From positions 1-64,000 of IMG/VR virus record IMGVR_UViG_3300035113_000077: a stretch of DNA of 64,000 nt; one strand, written 5' to 3'. Positions 15,467 to 37,729 of this stretch are shown here, one piece after another. The position numbers were made by a program, and so were the translations under genes. The notes beneath the pieces were generated by a model. That model worked only from the letters and a program-made list of their open reading frames with translations. It did no database searches and was not told where the DNA came from. Source of the DNA: a virus. Each line of letters starts with the position of its first letter. Within the stretch, counting starts at the first letter, position 1.

Positions 15467-15583
15467 TCACCTTATCTCTTTTGTATAAAATTCTCTAAAT
15501 GCTTTTAACTTCTCTTCGCAATATAGCCCATGACAACTACCAGCATGACTGCATCCTTTATAATGCTCTGAGAATTTTATCAT
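15467..15583 (-). CDS. Tiny Cys-containing ORF between tRNA and endolysin
   Basis: 38 aa from the ATG at 15583 (MIKFSEHYKGCSHAGSCHGL). Cys/His residues in GCSHAGSCHGLYCEE could bind zinc. The frame stays open backwards through the tRNA gene, but that part is only translated tRNA. The ribosome site is weak (AAGTGA). It ends just before the endolysin start. Confidence 0.4.
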   Translation of the reverse strand: MIKFSEHYKGCSHAGSCHGLYCEEKLKAFREFYTKEIR

Positions 15584-15606
15584 TAATTCACTTAAACTAT
15601 CTCTTT

Positions 15607-15691
15607 TGGTGCGGATAGAGGGAATCGAACCCTCATGACTTTCGTCTTCAGATTTTAAGTCTGATGCGTATACCAGTTCCGCCATATCCGC
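15607..15691 (-). tRNA. tRNA-Leu(UAA)
   Basis: An 85-base cloverleaf. Acceptor arms GCGGATA and TATCCGC pair over seven bases. The anticodon stem TCAGA/TCTGA encloses loop CTTAAAA, giving anticodon TAA. A long variable arm (GACGAAAGTC) is typical of leucine, and the T-loop is GGTTCGATTCC. The 3' CCA is encoded. It reads UUA, a codon favoured by an AT-rich genome. Confidence 0.95.
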
Positions 15692-15720
15692 TTCTTTCAT
15701 TTAATTTATCCTATTGAATT

Positions 15721-19099: not shown

Positions 19100-19279
19100 C
19101 TAGTTTCCTTCTTCTTCCCCTCTTTTGTTCCACTCTTTTAACCATTTATCTTGATATTCTTTTGGTTGGGCTTTAAACCACTTATACCATTTCTTAGCAC
19201 CATGTCTAGCCCATAATAAAAAGCCTACTATAAATAAAAACAATAATAATATTACTATAGTTTCTGTTGTACTCATCAT
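19100..19279 (-). CDS. Small single-span membrane protein
   Basis: 59 aa (58 if the second ATG at 19276 is used). TETIVILLLFLFIVGFLLW spans the membrane, followed by a basic, Trp-rich amphipathic tail (GAKKWYKWFKAQPKEYQDKW). Its two ATGs overlap the stop of the Mre11-Rad50 gene. No family is recognised. Confidence 0.65.
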   Translation of the reverse strand: MMSTTETIVILLLFLFIVGFLLWARHGAKKWYKWFKAQPKEYQDKWLKEWNKRGEEEGN

Positions 19280-22059
19280 TGTACCACCTTCGATATACTA
19301 TGGTGTTTCTCTATTTTAATTACTTTCTCGTTTGATAACTCTCCAAGCAATATAGGAGAGTGGGTAACTACGAATATTGATTCGAATCGTTTTTTCATTT
19401 CAGTCAATGACTTAGCAAAACGTCTTATGTTATGTGGTGATAATCCAGCTTCTGGCTCATCTAAAATCAATACATTCGTCTTAGGTGCAATTTCTTTCAA
19501 TGCAAAGCTAGTTATTAATCCAGCAATTGAAGCTTCACCATTTGATTGGTCAGTAGCTTTCTCTCCACCATGTAAATTGATTATCTTAGGAACTAAATCT
19601 CCCTCATCAGGTTTGAATTGAACTAGCACTTCTTTATCGCAAAACATATCTGAATAATGTTCACAAGCTTTATTTAGAATCGGAGCTACTTGTGCATTTA
19701 TAAATGCAGGTAATCCATCTTTGTTGAATGCTTCTTCACAGTATGTAATAAATCTAGAATCTTTTTCCAGTTGATTTTTGTATTCTTTGAATTCAATTAA
19801 CTCTTGCTTGCGTTTCTTATATCTTTTGAATATTTCTTTCTTAGAAGCTTTTCCTCTATCAATATTACTTTGAATTTCTTTCTTCATTAAAGTCAACAAT
19901 TCTAAAACTGAGTTAGCTTTATCTCTAGCACTAGCAAAGTCTAATTTAGCTTTATCTATTTCTCCTTCATATATGGCACATAAGTTATTGTATTCAGTTC
20001 GTTTACCATATAATATCTTTAGTTTACGTTTTATCTTAATAAATGAACGTTGACTTGTTTCTATCTTTTGTTTGAATTGCTTACTACTTATTTTGCTATG
20101 GCATGTAGGACATTCATTCTTGTCTACTAAGTTCTTATAGCGACTTAATAGTTGCTCTACATTCCACAAGCTCTTATTAACTATTTCAATCTGTGTTTCA
20201 TAAGATGTTACCATCTTAGCTGCATTATCATATTTCTTTTGATACTTACGATACTTATGATTTGATTTTCTCTCTAAAGCTTTCTTCTTTGAGTGTAGCT
20301 GTTTCCACTCATGCAATTGCTGTTTATAAGCACGTTGCATTTTTTCAATTTGCTTTTTATTATCTTTACTATATTCTTTTGTAAGTCTTTTATGTTCACT
20401 TAACTCTGACTCTAAAGAATCAATAGCTTTTTGATTTTGCTCTATAGTTGTTTCATGTCTTTGTTTATACTTCTTTACTAATACTAAAGCTCTTTCAAAG
20501 CGTTCCAAATTTTGGAACTTATAAAGAATAGAAATACGATCACTGCGGCTACCAGTAATAAAAGCACTAGCAATGGTGCGGTCAATATAAACAGAATTTG
20601 CAAGTGTATGCCACGAAAACCCAGATACAGATTCAATACGCGACTGAGTTCCTTCAGTGGATGATTTATTAATTCCCGAACTGTTGTCTTTCCCTTCAAC
20701 CAACAACTGAAGCCTATTAGGATGCCTACCACGTACAATAGTATAAACTTTACCATTCGATCTTAACCTCAATCTTGCTCTTGCTTTATTCTTAGTTTGT
20801 CGTCTTGCCCATCGATCGTATTTCTGTCCTTTAAATGTCCTCCCGTATAATGATACCGGAATTGATTGGACATAGTTTGACTTGCCACTTCCATTCGATT
20901 GGTTTGACCAATCTTTATTTGTGCCTTCAATAAGCACCAATCCTTGCTTCTTAAAAAGACATTTAATTTTCTTGAAACTAAGAAAATTTTCACCTTCAAA
21001 ATCAATGAACTCAATCTGTTGACTACCATGACGACGTAGGCCTTCTGATTCTTTTAACTTTGATACTAGAAATGATATGATTTTATCTTTCTGTTTTTCT
21101 AACTTATCAGTAATTGTTTCGTTTACATAAGCTTTAATCTTTTGCTCATCTGAATCATTGACATTAACTTTAGCTTCTCTTTTTTCTTCTTGAATGAAAT
21201 TAGGAACTATTTTTATTATTGCTCCCGGATATTCACGCTCTGATAGTAATTGTGCTCTATCTAATATCTTTTTGTAATTTGAATCAGTATCTACATCAAC
21301 ATGAATTCTTACTCTAGCATTTTTCCAAGTCTTTGGTTTAATAAAGCCTGGCCAACTAGGATCATAATAACCAGGTAATGGGCTATCTATACTTTTTACT
21401 TCTGATCCTAATACTAATAAAAATCGTTTCTTCTGATTTACTTCGCCGTAGTCCATTGCAAAAGGGCTACCTACATAATGTTCTTGAGGTAAGTGAATGT
21501 GTCCACCAATAACTGCTAAATACTTCTCTGGATATAATTCGCTAAGTCTTAATCTGCTATTAGATAATGTTCCTAGCTGATTATACTTACAATCTTTTAT
21601 ATCAGCATGAAATAAAAGAATATCTTTATATTTATCCCATTCTAATTCAGATAATAGCTTTGCTCTTTTTCTTAGTTCTCTATTACTAGTTGTGAATGGC
21701 AACATTCCTATCTTGCCATTGGTTAGCTCACAAACACCTGGGCTATCAAATGTTTCAGCACCAGCTTTTCTTAGAATAGATAACCAATTTCTTTTATCAG
21801 TATACAAGCTAGATCTATCATGATTTCCTAATAATACAATTACTCTAATATTTTGGTTAGAAGCTTTACTTATAGAGCGAAACCAAAACTTTGTAACATC
21901 TAAATCAACTGGGTTATACTGAGATTTTAGGTCTCCAGCTACAACTATAGCTTCTAAAGAATTCTTTTTAGCAATACTTAATATATATTTCCAGCATTTT
22001 TTACTTCTATCAATGTTTTCATAACAAACTTGCCAATCGCTAGTTATAATTATACGCAT
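19276..22059 (-). CDS. Single-chain Mre11-Rad50 (SbcD-SbcC, gp47-gp46) nuclease-ATPase
   Basis: 927 aa from the ATG at 22059 (a TTG at 22065 is also open). Residues 1-215 are an Mre11-type metallophosphoesterase: SDWQ at 7-10, GD at 42-43, GNHD at 78-81, His151 and GGHIH at 185-189. Residues 345-927 are Rad50-type: Walker A 379-394 (ending NGSGKS), zinc hook CPTC at 650-653 inside a coiled coil, signature around 837-846, Walker B with Asp867/Glu868 and the switch VVTHSP. The complex trims DNA ends and feeds recombination. Phages and bacteria normally use two genes, so the fusion is unusual. The coiled coil is short. It overlaps the HNH gene by 10 bases. Confidence 0.9.
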   Translation of the reverse strand: MRIIITSDWQVCYENIDRSKKCWKYILSIAKKNSLEAIVVAGDLKSQYNPVDLDVTKFWFRSISKASNQNIRVIVLLGNHDRSSLYTDKRNWLSILRKAGAETFDSPGVCELTNGKIGMLPFTTSNRELRKRAKLLSELEWDKYKDILLFHADIKDCKYNQLGTLSNSRLRLSELYPEKYLAVIGGHIHLPQEHYVGSPFAMDYGEVNQKKRFLLVLGSEVKSIDSPLPGYYDPSWPGFIKPKTWKNARVRIHVDVDTDSNYKKILDRAQLLSEREYPGAIIKIVPNFIQEEKREAKVNVNDSDEQKIKAYVNETITDKLEKQKDKIISFLVSKLKESEGLRRHGSQQIEFIDFEGENFLSFKKIKCLFKKQGLVLIEGTNKDWSNQSNGSGKSNYVQSIPVSLYGRTFKGQKYDRWARRQTKNKARARLRLRSNGKVYTIVRGRHPNRLQLLVEGKDNSSGINKSSTEGTQSRIESVSGFSWHTLANSVYIDRTIASAFITGSRSDRISILYKFQNLERFERALVLVKKYKQRHETTIEQNQKAIDSLESELSEHKRLTKEYSKDNKKQIEKMQRAYKQQLHEWKQLHSKKKALERKSNHKYRKYQKKYDNAAKMVTSYETQIEIVNKSLWNVEQLLSRYKNLVDKNECPTCHSKISSKQFKQKIETSQRSFIKIKRKLKILYGKRTEYNNLCAIYEGEIDKAKLDFASARDKANSVLELLTLMKKEIQSNIDRGKASKKEIFKRYKKRKQELIEFKEYKNQLEKDSRFITYCEEAFNKDGLPAFINAQVAPILNKACEHYSDMFCDKEVLVQFKPDEGDLVPKIINLHGGEKATDQSNGEASIAGLITSFALKEIAPKTNVLILDEPEAGLSPHNIRRFAKSLTEMKKRFESIFVVTHSPILLGELSNEKVIKIEKHHSISKVVQ

Positions 22060-22568
22060 TTCCAAACTCGATTCCGAATCACTGTTGAAACATGAGCTTG
22101 AGAAATGTTATATTTTTCAGCTAATTCAACCTGATTATATTTCCCAATCTTATAGTATTTTCTGATTTTTCTAACTATTTTATTTGTTAATTTAGCACTA
22201 GGATTATCCTCACCTTTTCTACTTCTTCCAATTTTAACTCCATTTAGTAAAGCATGTTCCATATTTTCTTGATTTGTTAGATATTCCAAATTTTTGTAAT
22301 GATTGTTTCCTTTATCTAAATCTTTATGATTTACTTGATGGTCGTCAGTAGGATAATCTCCAATAAATACTAGTGCAATTAAAGAATGAACTGATTTTCT
22401 ACATTTCTTCCCATCTTCATATAAAGTCAACCAACAATATCCTCTTCCATCCACCCAAGGAATTAATATTTTTCCATAATAACCCTTTATAAATCCTTCT
22501 TTACAGGCTTCATAATGTGGAAATCCTGGAATTGATTTCCATTTACTAGTTGTTTTATCTATTCTCAT
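22050..22568 (-). CDS. HNH homing endonuclease (NUMOD4-HNH)
   Basis: 172 aa from the ATG at 22568. Residues 9-55 are a NUMOD4-type domain (WKSIPGFPHYEACKEGFIKG). The HNH core follows (VHSLIALVF, QVNHKDLDKGNNHYKNLEYL). A C-terminal helix-turn-helix for target binding (VELAEKYNISQAHVSTVI) completes it. The gene sits exactly between a decayed Mre11 N-terminus ending at GNHE and the intact Mre11-Rad50 gene, overlapping the latter by 10 bases. It is a free-standing mobile gene. A relative is at 37181-37729. Confidence 0.9.
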   Translation of the reverse strand: MRIDKTTSKWKSIPGFPHYEACKEGFIKGYYGKILIPWVDGRGYCWLTLYEDGKKCRKSVHSLIALVFIGDYPTDDHQVNHKDLDKGNNHYKNLEYLTNQENMEHALLNGVKIGRSRKGEDNPSAKLTNKIVRKIRKYYKIGKYNQVELAEKYNISQAHVSTVIRNRVWKCV

Positions 22569-22763
22569 GGTTACCAAGTAAAATGATTACTCTAAGATGT
22601 CTTTCAATAGCCTTTCTAATTGCTTTAAACCAAAATCACCTGCAAGTACAATTGCTTCTAGTGAATATTTCTTGCATTGCTTTAATATAAACTCCCAAGC
22701 AGTAACACACTGGTCGTGATTCGAATACTCGGCCTGCCAGTCAGAGCTAATGAGAATTCTCAT
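22569..22763 (-). pseudogene. Decayed N-terminal Mre11 (SbcD) copy
   Basis: From the ATG at 22763 the reading frame gives MRILISSDWQAEYSNHDQCV and then YSLEAIVLAGDF. This parallels MRIIITSDWQVCYENIDRSK and NSLEAIVVAGD of the intact gene 0.7 kb away. A deletion of roughly 44 bases then shifts the frame: the first frame stops at 22587, while another frame continues WFKAIRKAIERHLRVIILLG and ends at GNHE exactly where the HNH gene begins. The copy is diverged, not a recent duplicate. The start overlaps the upstream stop as ATGA. A 58-residue product could still be made. Confidence 0.8.
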
Positions 22764-22975
22764 TTTGTAAGTTCTTTATATGCTCTATGAGCTTCTTCAA
22801 ATGTTGGATACCACAAACCAACTGTCTCTACTTTATGATTTGAATTTCCAATTGGAAGTTCATGTTTTCCAATTTCGTGATCTACTGGCCCTTGGCAACA
22901 ATAACAACCCAAATTCAAAGCATCTTTAATGTGATAAGTACATTGCACAAATTTCTTATTTCCATTTTCTTCCAT
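22760..22975 (-). CDS. Hypothetical protein with Cys cluster
   Basis: 71 aa. LNLGCYCCQGPVDHEIGKHE carries C-x-CC and His residues that may bind metal. LWYPTFEEAHRAYKELTK forms the C-terminal helix. It lies between the clamp loader and the decayed Mre11 copy. No family is recognised. Confidence 0.65.
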   Translation of the reverse strand: MEENGNKKFVQCTYHIKDALNLGCYCCQGPVDHEIGKHELPIGNSNHKVETVGLWYPTFEEAHRAYKELTK

Positions 22976-22979
22976 AAAA

Positions 22980-23981
22980 TTATCTCGGGTGACTATTGAA
23001 AATTCGAGTCGCGTAAAAGCATGCTGCTCGAACTCTTGCTAAGATTGTACTGTTTTCTCCTGCTGCATCTGTAATCTTTTCTATGGCTTTAGCGATAGCT
23101 TCCGTTCTATCGTCCATTTCTTCCGAGTCAATAAGTACTGTTGATAACCACGCTGAAATTGTTCCACGAATTGCTCTTGCATCTTCTTTTGTAGCTTCAC
23201 CAAGATATTTTCTAGCTCCACTCCAATCTCCCTTGGTGATTGCACGTATAAGGTATCGTGGATTAAAAGTACTTGTGTATTCGACAACAGCTGCTTCTTC
23301 ATATGTTGCACCTGCTAGTTTATTCTCTATAGCTTTAACAACAAATCCAGCGCTAGTTACTCCATTTTCAATTAGTGCTTCACATAGCTTCAATGGAGAA
23401 CAATCTTCTTCTAATTCTTTTGCAAATTTCAATACTCTACGAATTAGTTTACGAATACCTTCTTCATTTAATTTTTCTAATCCAATTGATTTTACTCTTC
23501 TCCACATTGCTTTAACTACTAATTCAGGTTCACTAGTGCACAGTATCCAAATACAAGTCTTAGGTGATTCTTCTGTTTTCTTCAATAACATTTTCTGTGC
23601 ATGTTTAGATAGTCCTTGAAACTCATCCAAAATATAAACACGATATCTACTTCCATGTTTAGGATATAAATTTGAATCTGCAATGATATTCTGCATCTCT
23701 TCTTTACCAGTATCTTCGGATGCATTACTTTCAACAATATCAAAGCTTCTTTTTCTTCTATAACATTTCTTACAGGGGTTACCAAACTTATCTTGGTGCT
23801 CACATTGGAAAGACAGAGCCATTATTCTAGCAACTGTTGTCTTTCCTGACCCTGACTCTCCAGTAAATAGCCAAGCAGTTTGATTTCGTTTTTTAAGTAA
23901 ACCTCTAACTCTATGAATTAGCTTATCTTGTCCAACTAATTCTCTAAAAGTCTTTGGTCTAAAATCACGAGTAAGTTGCAT
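22980..23981 (-). CDS. Clamp loader ATPase (DnaX/RFC-like)
   Basis: 333 aa. Walker A GESGSGKT is at 41-48, a zinc-type Cys set at C60, C70 and C73, and Walker B with Asp119/Glu120 (YILDEFQGLSKHAQ). Sensor 1 is LCTSEPE, and the AMWRRV segment corresponds to the arginine-finger motif. These AAA+ proteins load the sliding clamp onto DNA. A clamp-like protein is encoded at 31998-33122. No separate small clamp-loader subunit is seen. The start overlaps the preceding stop as TGATG. Confidence 0.85.
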   Translation of the reverse strand: MQLTRDFRPKTFRELVGQDKLIHRVRGLLKKRNQTAWLFTGESGSGKTTVARIMALSFQCEHQDKFGNPCKKCYRRKRSFDIVESNASEDTGKEEMQNIIADSNLYPKHGSRYRVYILDEFQGLSKHAQKMLLKKTEESPKTCIWILCTSEPELVVKAMWRRVKSIGLEKLNEEGIRKLIRRVLKFAKELEEDCSPLKLCEALIENGVTSAGFVVKAIENKLAGATYEEAAVVEYTSTFNPRYLIRAITKGDWSGARKYLGEATKEDARAIRGTISAWLSTVLIDSEEMDDRTEAIAKAIEKITDAAGENSTILARVRAACFYATRIFNSHPR

Positions 23982-26264: not shown

Positions 26265-27368
26265 CTATTTCTTTTTCTTGCCCTTTGCCTTAGCTTTTGC
26301 ACCTTTCTTAGGACCAGGCTTAGCCTTTCCTTTCTTTGGCTTATCATCTGAGCTTGAAGCAGCAGATGAAACAGCACTACTACTTGCAGAGCCACTAGCT
26401 GAACCACTTGCACTTCCAGATCCAGAACTCTTCTTGCTGGAACTAGATGCACTACCAGAACCACTCGATGAAGCTGAGCCACTAGCACTACCACTTCCGC
26501 TGCCGGAGCCTGAACTCTTTGCACTTCCAGAGCTTGCTGCCGATGAACTAGCAGAGCCACTTGCAGACGATGAGGCACTACCACTAGCTGCCGAGCTACT
26601 AGCTGCGGTGGATGAAGCGGTTGAACTAGTTGCTGCTTTCTTCTTAGCTTTCTTCTTTGCTGCCATACTAGAATCTCCATTCGATGAATTATTTGAACTA
26701 CTTGCACTTCCACTAGAACTTGCTGAATCACTCTTACCAGAATAAGCTTGCTTCTGCCTATTCTCATCATACTTAGGAATTATTTCTTCAAATGTTCTCA
26801 TGGCTTTCAGTACCTTCTCCGGTACCTCCGACTTATCTGGAGATATCATTGGAGAGGAATATACTGTAGCCATTCCTTGACCCTCCCTGTTAATGATAAT
26901 GTTACGACCCTTCCTAGTATCTAAGGTATCGTATTTTGTGTTCTTCAGAGTCTTCATTATTCTCCAGGCAAGAGATTTCTTACCACCAAGGTTCATGGAG
27001 AATACTTCCGGGCCTCTGAGTTTCTTTCCATCTAGAACTGCAATCTGAACAGTGAAGACTTCTTTTGCCTTCATTGTATCAGCACGTTTCTGTTTGGATT
27101 TACTATCCGAAGCTTCATCCTTCGGAATCCTTACATCGCATAACCAACAGTGACCTTTTCCACTACTGTCTTTACCACAGGTGACAACTCTTTTATCTGG
27201 CCCTACATTTGTATGAATCTGATGTGTAAAATAAATGTATGGGTCTTTATCTTTCTTAGTTCGCTTAGTTGGAAGAACTCGAATTTCATTATCTTCTTCC
27301 TTAAGCTTATAGCTGCCTCCCTTTCGTGGTTTCTTTAGATCATCGTCTAATCTATCTTTCCAACCCAT
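26265..27368 (-). CDS. Single-stranded DNA-binding protein (gp32-like) with Ser/Ala/Gly repeats and basic tail
   Basis: 367 aa with GAGGAGAAT upstream. Residues 15-200 resemble T4 gp32-type proteins: DNEIRVLPTKRTKKDKDPYI, YFTHQIHTNVG, and a zinc-type set C64, H73, C74, C77 (GHCWLCD). It coats single-stranded DNA during replication. From about residue 211 to 340 the protein is almost only Ser, Ala and Gly, interrupted by KKKAKKKAATSS, and it ends in a strongly basic tail (KAKPGPKKGAKAKAKGKKKK). Normal phage and bacterial versions end in an acidic tail that recruits partners, so this ending is opposite in charge. Confidence 0.7.
   Translation of the reverse strand: MGWKDRLDDDLKKPRKGGSYKLKEEDNEIRVLPTKRTKKDKDPYIYFTHQIHTNVGPDKRVVTCGKDSSGKGHCWLCDVRIPKDEASDSKSKQKRADTMKAKEVFTVQIAVLDGKKLRGPEVFSMNLGGKKSLAWRIMKTLKNTKYDTLDTRKGRNIIINREGQGMATVYSSPMISPDKSEVPEKVLKAMRTFEEIIPKYDENRQKQAYSGKSDSASSSGSASSSNNSSNGDSSMAAKKKAKKKAATSSTASSTAASSSAASGSASSSASGSASSSAASSGSAKSSGSGSGSGSASGSASSSGSGSASSSSKKSSGSGSASGSASGSASSSAVSSAASSSDDKPKKGKAKPGPKKGAKAKAKGKKKK
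26349..26738 (-). repeat. Low-complexity Ser/Ala/Gly codon repeat
   Basis: About 390 bases of imperfect GCx/AGx/TCx/GGx codon repeats encode the Ser/Ala/Gly region of the single-stranded DNA-binding protein. Long open frames on the opposite strand here (such as an Ala/Leu/Glu-rich one) are by-products of the repeat. The tract is prone to length change by slippage. Confidence 0.85.
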
Positions 27369-33330: not shown

Positions 33331-33738
33331 TTATTTGCCTTTCATTGCTTCCTTCATCCGAGTAAGAGATTCTCTCCACATTCCATGTCTTTTAACTATG
33401 TCAATAAACTCTTCTACTTCGTGATGGAATAGCTTAAATTGAGTTCCTTTCTTTGTTTTCTTACGTGCCATGTGTCTGAGTTCGTGGTCAACTAAAGCTT
33501 TCTGTCCTTTGTGACCTAGACCAGCCCATTCATCAGCATTGAATGTTAAAACATAATCACCATCTACTCCTGCTTTTCTTGCTTTCTTAGATACTAATGC
33601 CATAGTACCATATTTGTCCCATTTACCAGTACGCATTAGAATAACAATTTTAGCTTTACGGAATTTAGAATAGTACTTATGTCTAATATCTTTTACTAAT
33701 TTAGTTACTTCACTTGGTGCTTTGAAATAATCTGTCAT
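33331..33738 (-). CDS. Putative phage zinc metallopeptidase
   Basis: 135 aa. LVDHELRHM carries HExxH (H-E-L-R-H), the zinc-binding and catalytic motif of gluzincin-like peptidases. FHHEVEEFIDIVKRHG near the end gives further His/Glu ligands. The layout, about 130 residues with DYVLTFNADEW before HELRH, fits the phage metallopeptidase family seen next to replication genes. Its target is unknown. It overlaps folE by 4 bases. Confidence 0.75.
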   Translation of the reverse strand: MTDYFKAPSEVTKLVKDIRHKYYSKFRKAKIVILMRTGKWDKYGTMALVSKKARKAGVDGDYVLTFNADEWAGLGHKGQKALVDHELRHMARKKTKKGTQFKLFHHEVEEFIDIVKRHGMWRESLTRMKEAMKGK

Positions 33739-34379
33739 AACAGTGAATTCTCCTTACTTTTTGCTCCATCAAGAAATTCATACTTTGTTCTTTCACTATC
33801 TAAAAATGTTCCTCTCAACGATACTGTTCTAGTATATGAACCAGATTTCTTAACCCCACGAGCGCACATACAAAAATGAATAGCTTCAATTACTACTCCA
33901 CAACCTTGAGGATTAACTACTTCATTAAATATGTCTACAATCTGATCTGATAACTTTTCTTGTATCTGTAGCCTATGAGATAGAATTTCTGTCATTCTAG
34001 GAATCTTTGATAGCCCAACTATTTTACCATTTGGAATATAACCAAAATGAATCTTGCCCGCAAATGGGGCTATGTGATGAGCACAATGGCTAATGAAGGC
34101 TATATCGTTCACCCATATCATTTGATTATACTTTGATTCTTCAAAAGAAGCAGATAGTACACCTTTTGGTCCCGGGTCTGCTTTATAACCATTTATATAC
34201 TCATGCAAAGCTTCAACAAATCTATTAGGAGTATTTACTACATGATCATCTTTTAGTTCTAGTTCTTTACAAAGTTTAGTTATCCCTAAACTAATTAAAG
34301 TTTCCCAACTAAAACTTTCTAATAAGTGTGTTCCCAATTTTAACCCCCCCCCCCCCTCAATTATACTAATATTTCCCAA
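33735..34379 (-). CDS. folE: GTP cyclohydrolase I (FolE)
   Basis: Up to 214 aa. HCAHHIAPFAGKIHFGYIP, then GKIVGLSKIPRM and HFCMCARGVKKSGSYTRT carry the Cys/His zinc ligands and the substrate loop of FolE, which turns GTP into dihydroneopterin triphosphate, the first step towards folate or 7-deazaguanine. There is no ATG: the frame opens with TTG at 34379, or with TTG at 34337 just after a run of 13 Gs (34356-34344) that could itself act as ribosome site. The run makes the frame sensitive to slippage. The neighbouring DpdA-like gene supports a deazaguanine role. Confidence 0.9.
   Translation of the reverse strand: MGNISIIEGGGGLKLGTHLLESFSWETLISLGITKLCKELELKDDHVVNTPNRFVEALHEYINGYKADPGPKGVLSASFEESKYNQMIWVNDIAFISHCAHHIAPFAGKIHFGYIPNGKIVGLSKIPRMTEILSHRLQIQEKLSDQIVDIFNEVVNPQGCGVVIEAIHFCMCARGVKKSGSYTRTVSLRGTFLDSERTKYEFLDGAKSKENSLL
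34344..34356 (-). repeat. Thirteen-base homopolymer (poly-G on coding strand)
   Basis: Thirteen consecutive C on the plus strand, G in the transcript, near the 5' end of folE. It is remarkable in a genome of roughly one third G+C. The length may vary by slippage, or may be miscounted. Confidence 0.9.
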
Positions 34380-36952: not shown

Positions 36953-37184
36953 ACTTTTCGACCCTCACATATAATCTGCATATTTTTCTATCTTGGCATA
37001 TTTTACTACACACTAAAGAATGTTTATCATACTGATCTATTTTTCCGAAACAAACTGTTTTGTCTTTTTTGGCTTCATTATAACAACTACTACAAATACA
37101 AGTCGATGGAAAGAACTTCAAATCTTTAAAGTCTTGTTCAGAGAATTTCTCTTCACACAAAACACATTGGAAGACTTTAGTCAT
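36942..37184 (-). CDS. Small multi-Cys zinc-binding protein
   Basis: 80 aa. Cys pairs CVLC, CICSSC and SLVCSKICQDRKIC give eight Cys suited for two zinc ions. The pattern FQCVLCEEKFSEQDF resembles a phage or HNH-associated zinc ribbon. The start overlaps the HNH gene's stop by 4 bases. Confidence 0.65.
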   Translation of the reverse strand: MTKVFQCVLCEEKFSEQDFKDLKFFPSTCICSSCYNEAKKDKTVCFGKIDQYDKHSLVCSKICQDRKICRLYVRVEKYAS

Positions 37185-37729
37185 CTTCGTAACCAGGTAT
37201 TAAAATTTACAACATCACATATTACATTTTTATGTACTTTAAATAACTTAGCTAATCTAGTTTGTGTATACTTTCCAGTAGCATATAGCTTTCTAATTAA
37301 TTTAACTATTTTCCAAGTTAATTTTGCATTACCATTATTTTCACCAGTGTGATCTTTACCATACATCGGATTATTTTTACCACTTCTATTTGTAACTGTA
37401 TTTCCAATTTTAACTCCATTTCTAACAGCATGTCGCATATTTTCACTACGATTACACCACTCTAAATTCTTATAGTGGTTATCACTTTTAATTAAATTCT
37501 TGTGGTTAACATGTGGTCTTTTTCTTGTTTTTCCATCAACAAAAGTTACAGCTATTAACCTATGAACATATAATACTTTTCTTACGCCACCATCTGTTTT
37601 TGCAAGTACTTGTATATAACCAGTCTTAGTAACATACTGATTCTTTATAACTTTGGTTACACTATTACGTATATACTTACCATTTTTAGTTGCCTCAACT
37701 TGATAGCCAGTAACTTTATACCATTTCAT
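37181..37729 (-). CDS. HNH homing endonuclease (NUMOD-HNH)
   Basis: 182 aa. An N-terminal NUMOD4-like part (KWYKVTGYQVEATKNGKYIR), the HNH core (LYVHRLIAVTF, PHVNHKNLIKSDNHYKNLEW) and a C-terminal helix-turn-helix (QTRLAKLFKVHKNVICDVV) are present. It is related in sequence to the HNH gene at 22050-22568. It is inserted between the sigma-like gene and a zinc-finger gene, with no flanking duplicate that I can see. Confidence 0.9.
   Translation of the reverse strand: MKWYKVTGYQVEATKNGKYIRNSVTKVIKNQYVTKTGYIQVLAKTDGGVRKVLYVHRLIAVTFVDGKTRKRPHVNHKNLIKSDNHYKNLEWCNRSENMRHAVRNGVKIGNTVTNRSGKNNPMYGKDHTGENNGNAKLTWKIVKLIRKLYATGKYTQTRLAKLFKVHKNVICDVVNFNTWLRR

Follow-up and report, generated by a model that had tools for sequence, protein, structure and literature searches.

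The window analysed here is the first 64,000 nucleotides of the virus record IMGVR_UViG_3300035113_000077, whose full length is 98,650 bases. The studied locus lies entirely on the minus strand and is read from a clamp-loader gene through a 71-aa ORF and a fragment of an Mre11 N-terminus to an HNH gene and a fused Mre11-Rad50 gene, with the following features:

22980-23981, minus strand: clamp-loader gene (DNA polymerase III delta′/gamma-like; Pfam DNA_pol3_delta2, E = 2.7e-19)
22760-22975, minus strand: 71-aa ORF; its stop and the ATG of the fragment overlap (ATGA)
22635-22763, minus strand: Mre11 fragment, block 1 (codons 1-43), 57-58% identical to the intact copy
22565-22635, minus strand: Mre11 fragment, block 2 (codons 58-80, +1 frame), ending in the CATGA of the GNHD codons
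22050-22568, minus strand: HNH endonuclease gene, 172 aa, I-HmuI-like, with a C-terminal helix-turn-helix (Pfam HNH_3, PHROG 59, 1u3e)
19276-22059, minus strand: intact fused Mre11-Rad50 gene, 927 aa (Metallophos, SbcC PHROG_77, profile matches)

The clamp loader upstream of Mre11-Rad50 is a conserved neighbour that is also found in the relatives described below, where an overlap of an upstream ORF with the Mre11-Rad50 start is frequent too. No homologues of the 71-aa ORF were detected, and the small upstream ORFs of the relatives are not homologous to it, so they are uninformative on which of the two Mre11 starts is native.

The intact gene is complete from residue 1, with its own N-terminus. 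Its product matches Metallophos (E = 3.7e-14) and SbcC PHROG_77 (E = 6e-50), as well as the profiles of Rad50, Mre11 and SbcD structures. Residues D8, D43, N79, H80, H151, H187 and H189 are invariant in 24 family members; motif I reads D-x-Q rather than D-x-H in the window protein and in 22 of the 24, and all other phosphoesterase motif residues that were checked are invariant across the family. Judged by these motifs, the gene is a predicted fused Mre11-Rad50 (SbcDC) with phosphoesterase and ABC-ATPase parts. Fused Mre11-Rad50 proteins are known in Mimivirus, a Bacillus phage and others, and viruses have been suggested as their main home (PMC3175470). The window protein shares with them the single polypeptide and the domain order, and differs in belonging to a phage family with the fixed arrangement UvsX - clamp loader - fused gene and mostly Gln in motif I.

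We then examined the sequence upstream of the HNH gene. In BLASTP, the ORF at 22763-22587 (MRILISSDWQ...LAGD) matches the intact N-terminus with 57% identity over 44 aa (E = 2e-14), and codons 1-43, MRILISSDWQAEYSNHDQCVTAWEFILKQCKKYSLEAIVLAGD, align to the intact copy without a gap. A second block of about 22 codons, FWFKAIRKAIERHLRVIILLGNH, is read in the +1 frame; the two blocks together, upstream of the HNH gene, are recovered with E = 4.8e-16. Between the blocks, a net deletion of 43 nt has removed codons 44-57 (LKxxYNPVDxxVxN) and shifted the frame. The deleted stretch includes K45, Y48, N49, P50, V51, D52 and V55, which do not vary among the three fused proteins of the initial alignment and hardly vary in the wider fused family, so the fragment is unable to serve as a functional Mre11 N-terminus. 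The first-pass annotation had described a diverged, frameshifted Mre11 N-terminus here, and such a remnant is indeed present; its extent is corrected to 22763-22565, and the shift coincides with the deletion instead of being a simple indel.

The Mre11 homology of the fragment ends immediately past CATGA, the His-Asp codons of GNHD. This motif is found in all 24 family members, whereas the fragment reads GNH followed by E-N, so that the sequence past CATGA is no longer Mre11. The ATG of the HNH gene (22568-22566) lies within this same CATGA, which bears out the earlier claim that the fragment stops at the GNHD motif where the HNH gene begins. The coordinates likewise agree with the proposed 10-base overlap between the end of the HNH ORF (22050) and the start of the full Mre11-Rad50 gene (22059).

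The HNH ORF is intact, and its protein matches Pfam HNH_3 (E = 3.5e-10, 39.8 bits, cut-off 24.8), PHROG 59 (E = 6e-35) and the homing endonuclease I-HmuI (1u3e, E = 1.8e-8) across residues 9-111, including the HNH region. It is accordingly assigned, as a putative member, to the I-HmuI-like homing-endonuclease family, in line with the earlier proposal of homing. The gene of I-HmuI lies within a group I intron, in contrast to the one studied here: an Rfam scan of 21700-23100 at a permissive threshold gave no intron family match, a group I intron RNA core was not found at the locus, and the flanks of the HNH gene abut other ORFs directly. The gene thus appears to be free-standing, outside any self-splicing intron or intein.

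Three further HNH_3 genes lie in the same genome at 37181-37729, 66853-67353 and 72223-72750 (the last two being L010:2853-3353 and L010:8223-8750 in locus coordinates), and all four are 34-50% identical among themselves. In the alignment, the three others start at or near the place that matches residue 9 of the studied protein. As the similarity to I-HmuI also begins at residue 9, the seven or eight residues at the N-terminus have the look of an addition, and the start codon that of a recruited one. A homology of this start with that of the h4 HNH gene was unsupported by DNA comparison, and no clear ribosome-binding site was found before the studied gene. Each of the four HNH genes runs into the start codon of the following gene, by the 10-base overlap in the studied case and by ATGA, TAATG and ATGA in the others, and only the studied gene (one of four in the genome) is preceded by a piece of its downstream neighbour. 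One of the siblings is followed by what resembles a portal gene. An HNH homing endonuclease gene that is 37.5% identical to that of the window occurs in Bacillus phage Eldridge (L007:4418-4987), directly after and overlapping a Rad50-like exonuclease gene; this is an unrelated phage, again with an HNH gene at an Mre11/Rad50 locus.

We next looked at how the two Mre11 copies diverged. Over 43 codons, the fragment and the intact gene differ at 16, 14 and 32 sites in codon positions 1, 2 and 3, respectively, and over both blocks the differences amount to 42 of 130 at positions 1 and 2 versus 43 of 65 at position 3 (P = 8e-6). Both are equally close to the family, with a mean identity of 0.370 for the fragment and 0.369 for the intact copy, and the tree branch of the fragment (0.40) is not longer than that of the intact copy (0.47). 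The majority residue of the family is present in the fragment and missing from the intact copy at 11 sites, and the converse holds at six. A test of conserved versus variable sites did not discriminate (Fisher P = 0.61). The third-position excess, the equal family identity and the majority residues together imply that both lineages were under selection while they diverged and that the deletion came afterwards; the fragment evolved as a functional gene. The same excess and identities support the earlier statement that the remnant is not a recent duplicate. Neither copy has a better match than the other one (57%, against at most 49% for any sampled relative over the same columns), and a tree of the N-termini left the nearest kin of the fragment unresolved.

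Which copy was resident is addressed by two clues that conflict, and neither is strong. The GC3 of the fragment is 0.395, a value reached by only 7% of the genome windows of the same size, whereas that of the intact gene is even and genome-typical (0.15-0.27 by segment). Of the two copies, it is the fragment whose composition is somewhat atypical of the genome; this weakly suggests that the fragment is foreign, the opposite of an incoming intact copy and a native remnant. No composition break was seen at codon 81 of the intact gene, where a hybrid gene would be predicted to have one, in a comparison of low power. On the other side, the adjacency to the clamp loader and the overlap of the ATG with the stop of the preceding ORF, which is common at native starts, point to the fragment as the resident.

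The relatives had to be reached indirectly. Scans with single-protein patterns (Mre11-Rad50, clamp loader, UvsX, HNH) returned no useful kin, because the phage is without close kin in the collections searched. A two-row alignment of both N-termini returned none, a Rad50 alignment returned distant phages only, and two scans of genome contigs gave no match. Listeria-labelled records with Mre11 and clamp-loader matches were rejected as kin and read as bacterial host sequence in a wastewater assembly. A degenerate DNA pattern (DWQ...IVxAGD) yielded the first two relatives, and an alignment that included them led to 26 loci in viral contigs, 23 of which were examined in detail (22 if the near-copies L117 and L118 are counted once). 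The fused proteins of the relatives are mostly 910-1069 aa long, and nearly all the relatives examined have the clamp loader upstream of the fused gene and a UvsX-like recombinase near it. The loci L114-L138 together with 19276-22059 of the window represent about two dozen uncultured phages with the fixed order UvsX-like recombinase, clamp loader, fused gene.

A self-search found no second Mre11 N-terminus in the 23 examined loci, and none of them has an HNH gene at the mre11 site. The four HNH proteins of the genome gave a single, weak match among these loci (L128, E = 0.008); it spans 53 aa (residues 118-170) in the C-terminal region and lies upstream of the fused gene. With neither an HNH gene at the site nor a second Mre11 start, the relatives show the uninvaded arrangement; they are distant, at about 38% identity over the full gene for the best of them, and a close relative of either allele was not found. 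The first-pass annotation had asked for related phages without the HNH gene and with one Mre11 N-terminus, and it is such phages, at this distance, that were recovered.

Hence, we read the locus as a recombination scar between two diverged Mre11-Rad50 alleles, most likely driven by the HNH homing endonuclease at the junction, and give this a probability of roughly 0.58. Two related phages with diverged mre11-rad50 alleles, one of them with an HNH gene at mre11, would have met in the same cell, where the HNH enzyme would have nicked or cut the other allele. In the ensuing repair, the 5′ part of this allele would have been linked to the HNH gene and to a whole allele that had escaped cutting, one of the joints being made imprecisely. 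The useless 5′ part could subsequently have gained its deletion and frameshift, with its CATGA giving the HNH gene a start codon, and the complete allele would have retained the repair function. The anatomy of the locus, the divergence under selection and the uninvaded relatives are the observed ground of this reading, to which we add, by inference from the sequence, the cleavage of mre11 by the HNH enzyme and the repair route. Conversion of flanking genes is known for homing endonucleases, which often have their sites in codons of functionally critical residues (PMC2988022). The end at GNHD is less telling in this respect, because an HNH gene that borrows its start from mre11 needs an ATG, which CATGA supplies; CATGA is present in the GNHD codons of 9-10 of the 23 relatives, with an ATGA count of 0-9 per 1044 nt. 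The end of the fragment may thus reflect start-codon recruitment. In the earlier account, homing at a conserved catalytic motif had been followed by replacement of the target gene by a diverged full copy. The diverged allele, the uninvaded relatives and the I-HmuI family agree with it; homing at the catalytic motif and the late arrival of the intact copy are no more than possible, as the CATGA end is explicable by recruitment and it is the fragment that is odd in composition. More tentatively, and with the odds against it, the HNH gene might travel in one cassette together with a complete, cut-resistant version of the essential recombination gene that it targets, restoring function in one step and leaving the N-terminal stub of the victim allele.

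The reverse order of events is equally open on composition, because the mildly unusual copy is the fragment. A donor with an mre11 gene split by the HNH gene at GNHD would have given the 5′ piece and the HNH gene, placed before a resident complete mre11-rad50. Insertion-split genes of this kind are known, with mobE in nrdA of Aeh1 and mobA in the T4 topoisomerase gene (PMC2988022), and the genome-typical GC3 throughout the intact gene would suit a resident. However, the signal from composition is weak, the fragment has retained the clamp-loader adjacency and an ATGA overlap common at the native starts of the relatives, and where the HNH stop meets the Mre11 start an imprecise joint would be required; we consider the reverse order a serious contender at less than even odds. 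Phage genomes are mosaic, and illegitimate recombination could also have joined the HNH gene and the mre11-rad50 block to a truncated mre11, with no causal part for the endonuclease. This could yield the same picture as an endonuclease-driven scar, with CATGA as a ready start codon and just a few ATGA per mre11, but it leaves unexplained why the sole gene fragment adjacent to an HNH gene derives from the direct neighbour of that HNH gene, and we regard it as unlikely.

A local tandem duplication of the mre11 N-terminus, with decay of the upstream copy, is favoured by the two copies being mutual best matches among those sampled. Neutral decay predicts neither the concentration of differences at third positions nor the family-majority residues that are lost from the intact copy and kept in the fragment, and on these two counts it was rejected, making a duplication very improbable. 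The record is an assembled viral contig, so a metagenome assembly chimera of two strains was also considered; neither junction has a long shared sequence that could mislead assembly, and the flanking gene order matches that of the relatives, which makes a chimera very improbable too. As to present use, the fragment could be kept as a 58-aa translated leader that couples translation to the HNH gene: its ORF starts at the ATGA overlap and stops 18 nt before the HNH ATG, which has no clear ribosome-binding site, and free-standing endonucleases of T4, often expressed by coupling to an upstream ORF, offer a precedent (PMC2988022). Such a leader, which we hold to be quite doubtful, would describe a possible present use and not an origin.

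Among described systems, the recombination scar that we favour has its nearest parallel, as a mirror image, in the gene hybrids of fungal mitochondria, where mobile endonuclease ORFs are accompanied by duplicated gene ends (Allomyces macrogynus atp6; Glomus sp. atp6, atp9, cox2 and nad3; PMC3630166). In both, an endonuclease ORF stands beside an essential gene with a duplicated, diverged piece, one copy being functional and the other a displaced remnant, and the two copies differ as functional alleles do. As in a mobile-ORF gene hybrid, the phage ORF is flanked by a functional and a remnant diverged copy, in mirrored orientation: in fungi, it is the C-terminal part that occurs twice, with the remnant downstream, and here the N-terminal part, with the remnant upstream. 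The fungal endonucleases are of the LAGLIDADG or GIY-YIG type and the phage one is HNH, and donor and native copies can be told apart in fungi only. The phage genes-in-pieces, mobE and mobA (PMC2988022), resemble the locus in having an HNH gene after the 5′ part of an essential gene, at a critical region. The locus is not a gene-in-pieces, because mre11-rad50 is whole downstream, N-terminus included, and what lies upstream is a dead piece. In T4, intronless homing and marker exclusion (PMC2988022) similarly involve a free-standing endonuclease beside a critical gene, and flanking co-conversion would spread one allele, but normal homologous repair leaves no leftover of the recipient allele. A full-text literature search, incomplete in its coverage, found no description of a comparable phage case.

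If our reading is right, the locus would be a genomic fossil of a free-standing homing endonuclease that settled at an essential phage gene without destroying it, one complete allele being kept and a piece of the other left behind. The target would be the phage's own break-processing nuclease. In T4-like phages, this nuclease has a role in the repair pathway on which homing draws.

Other features of the genome were noted in passing. Four ORFs, at 33735-34379, L011:14531-15085, L011:17724-18650 and L011:11413-12234, comprise genes with Pfam matches to GTP cyclohydrolase I, a 6-pyruvoyl-tetrahydropterin-synthase/QueD-like protein and a QueC-like protein, and one ORF that reads like QueE, with no Pfam match. 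This set is likely a 7-deazaguanine pathway, perhaps for DNA modification. An FtsK/SpoIIIE-type DNA translocase with a putative phage zinc finger is encoded at L011:2918-4351 (about 82918-84351 in the genome; FtsK alpha domain, Pfam E = 2.3e-35). A tRNA-Leu with a TAA anticodon lies at 15607-15691, and the ORF that overlaps it (15467-15700) is probably no gene. Finally, several genes of the phage, including those at 26265-27368 and L010:4434-5978, contain long Ser/Ala/Gly low-complexity stretches (SASGSASSS type), and one such gene sits directly upstream of the UvsX-like gene region.
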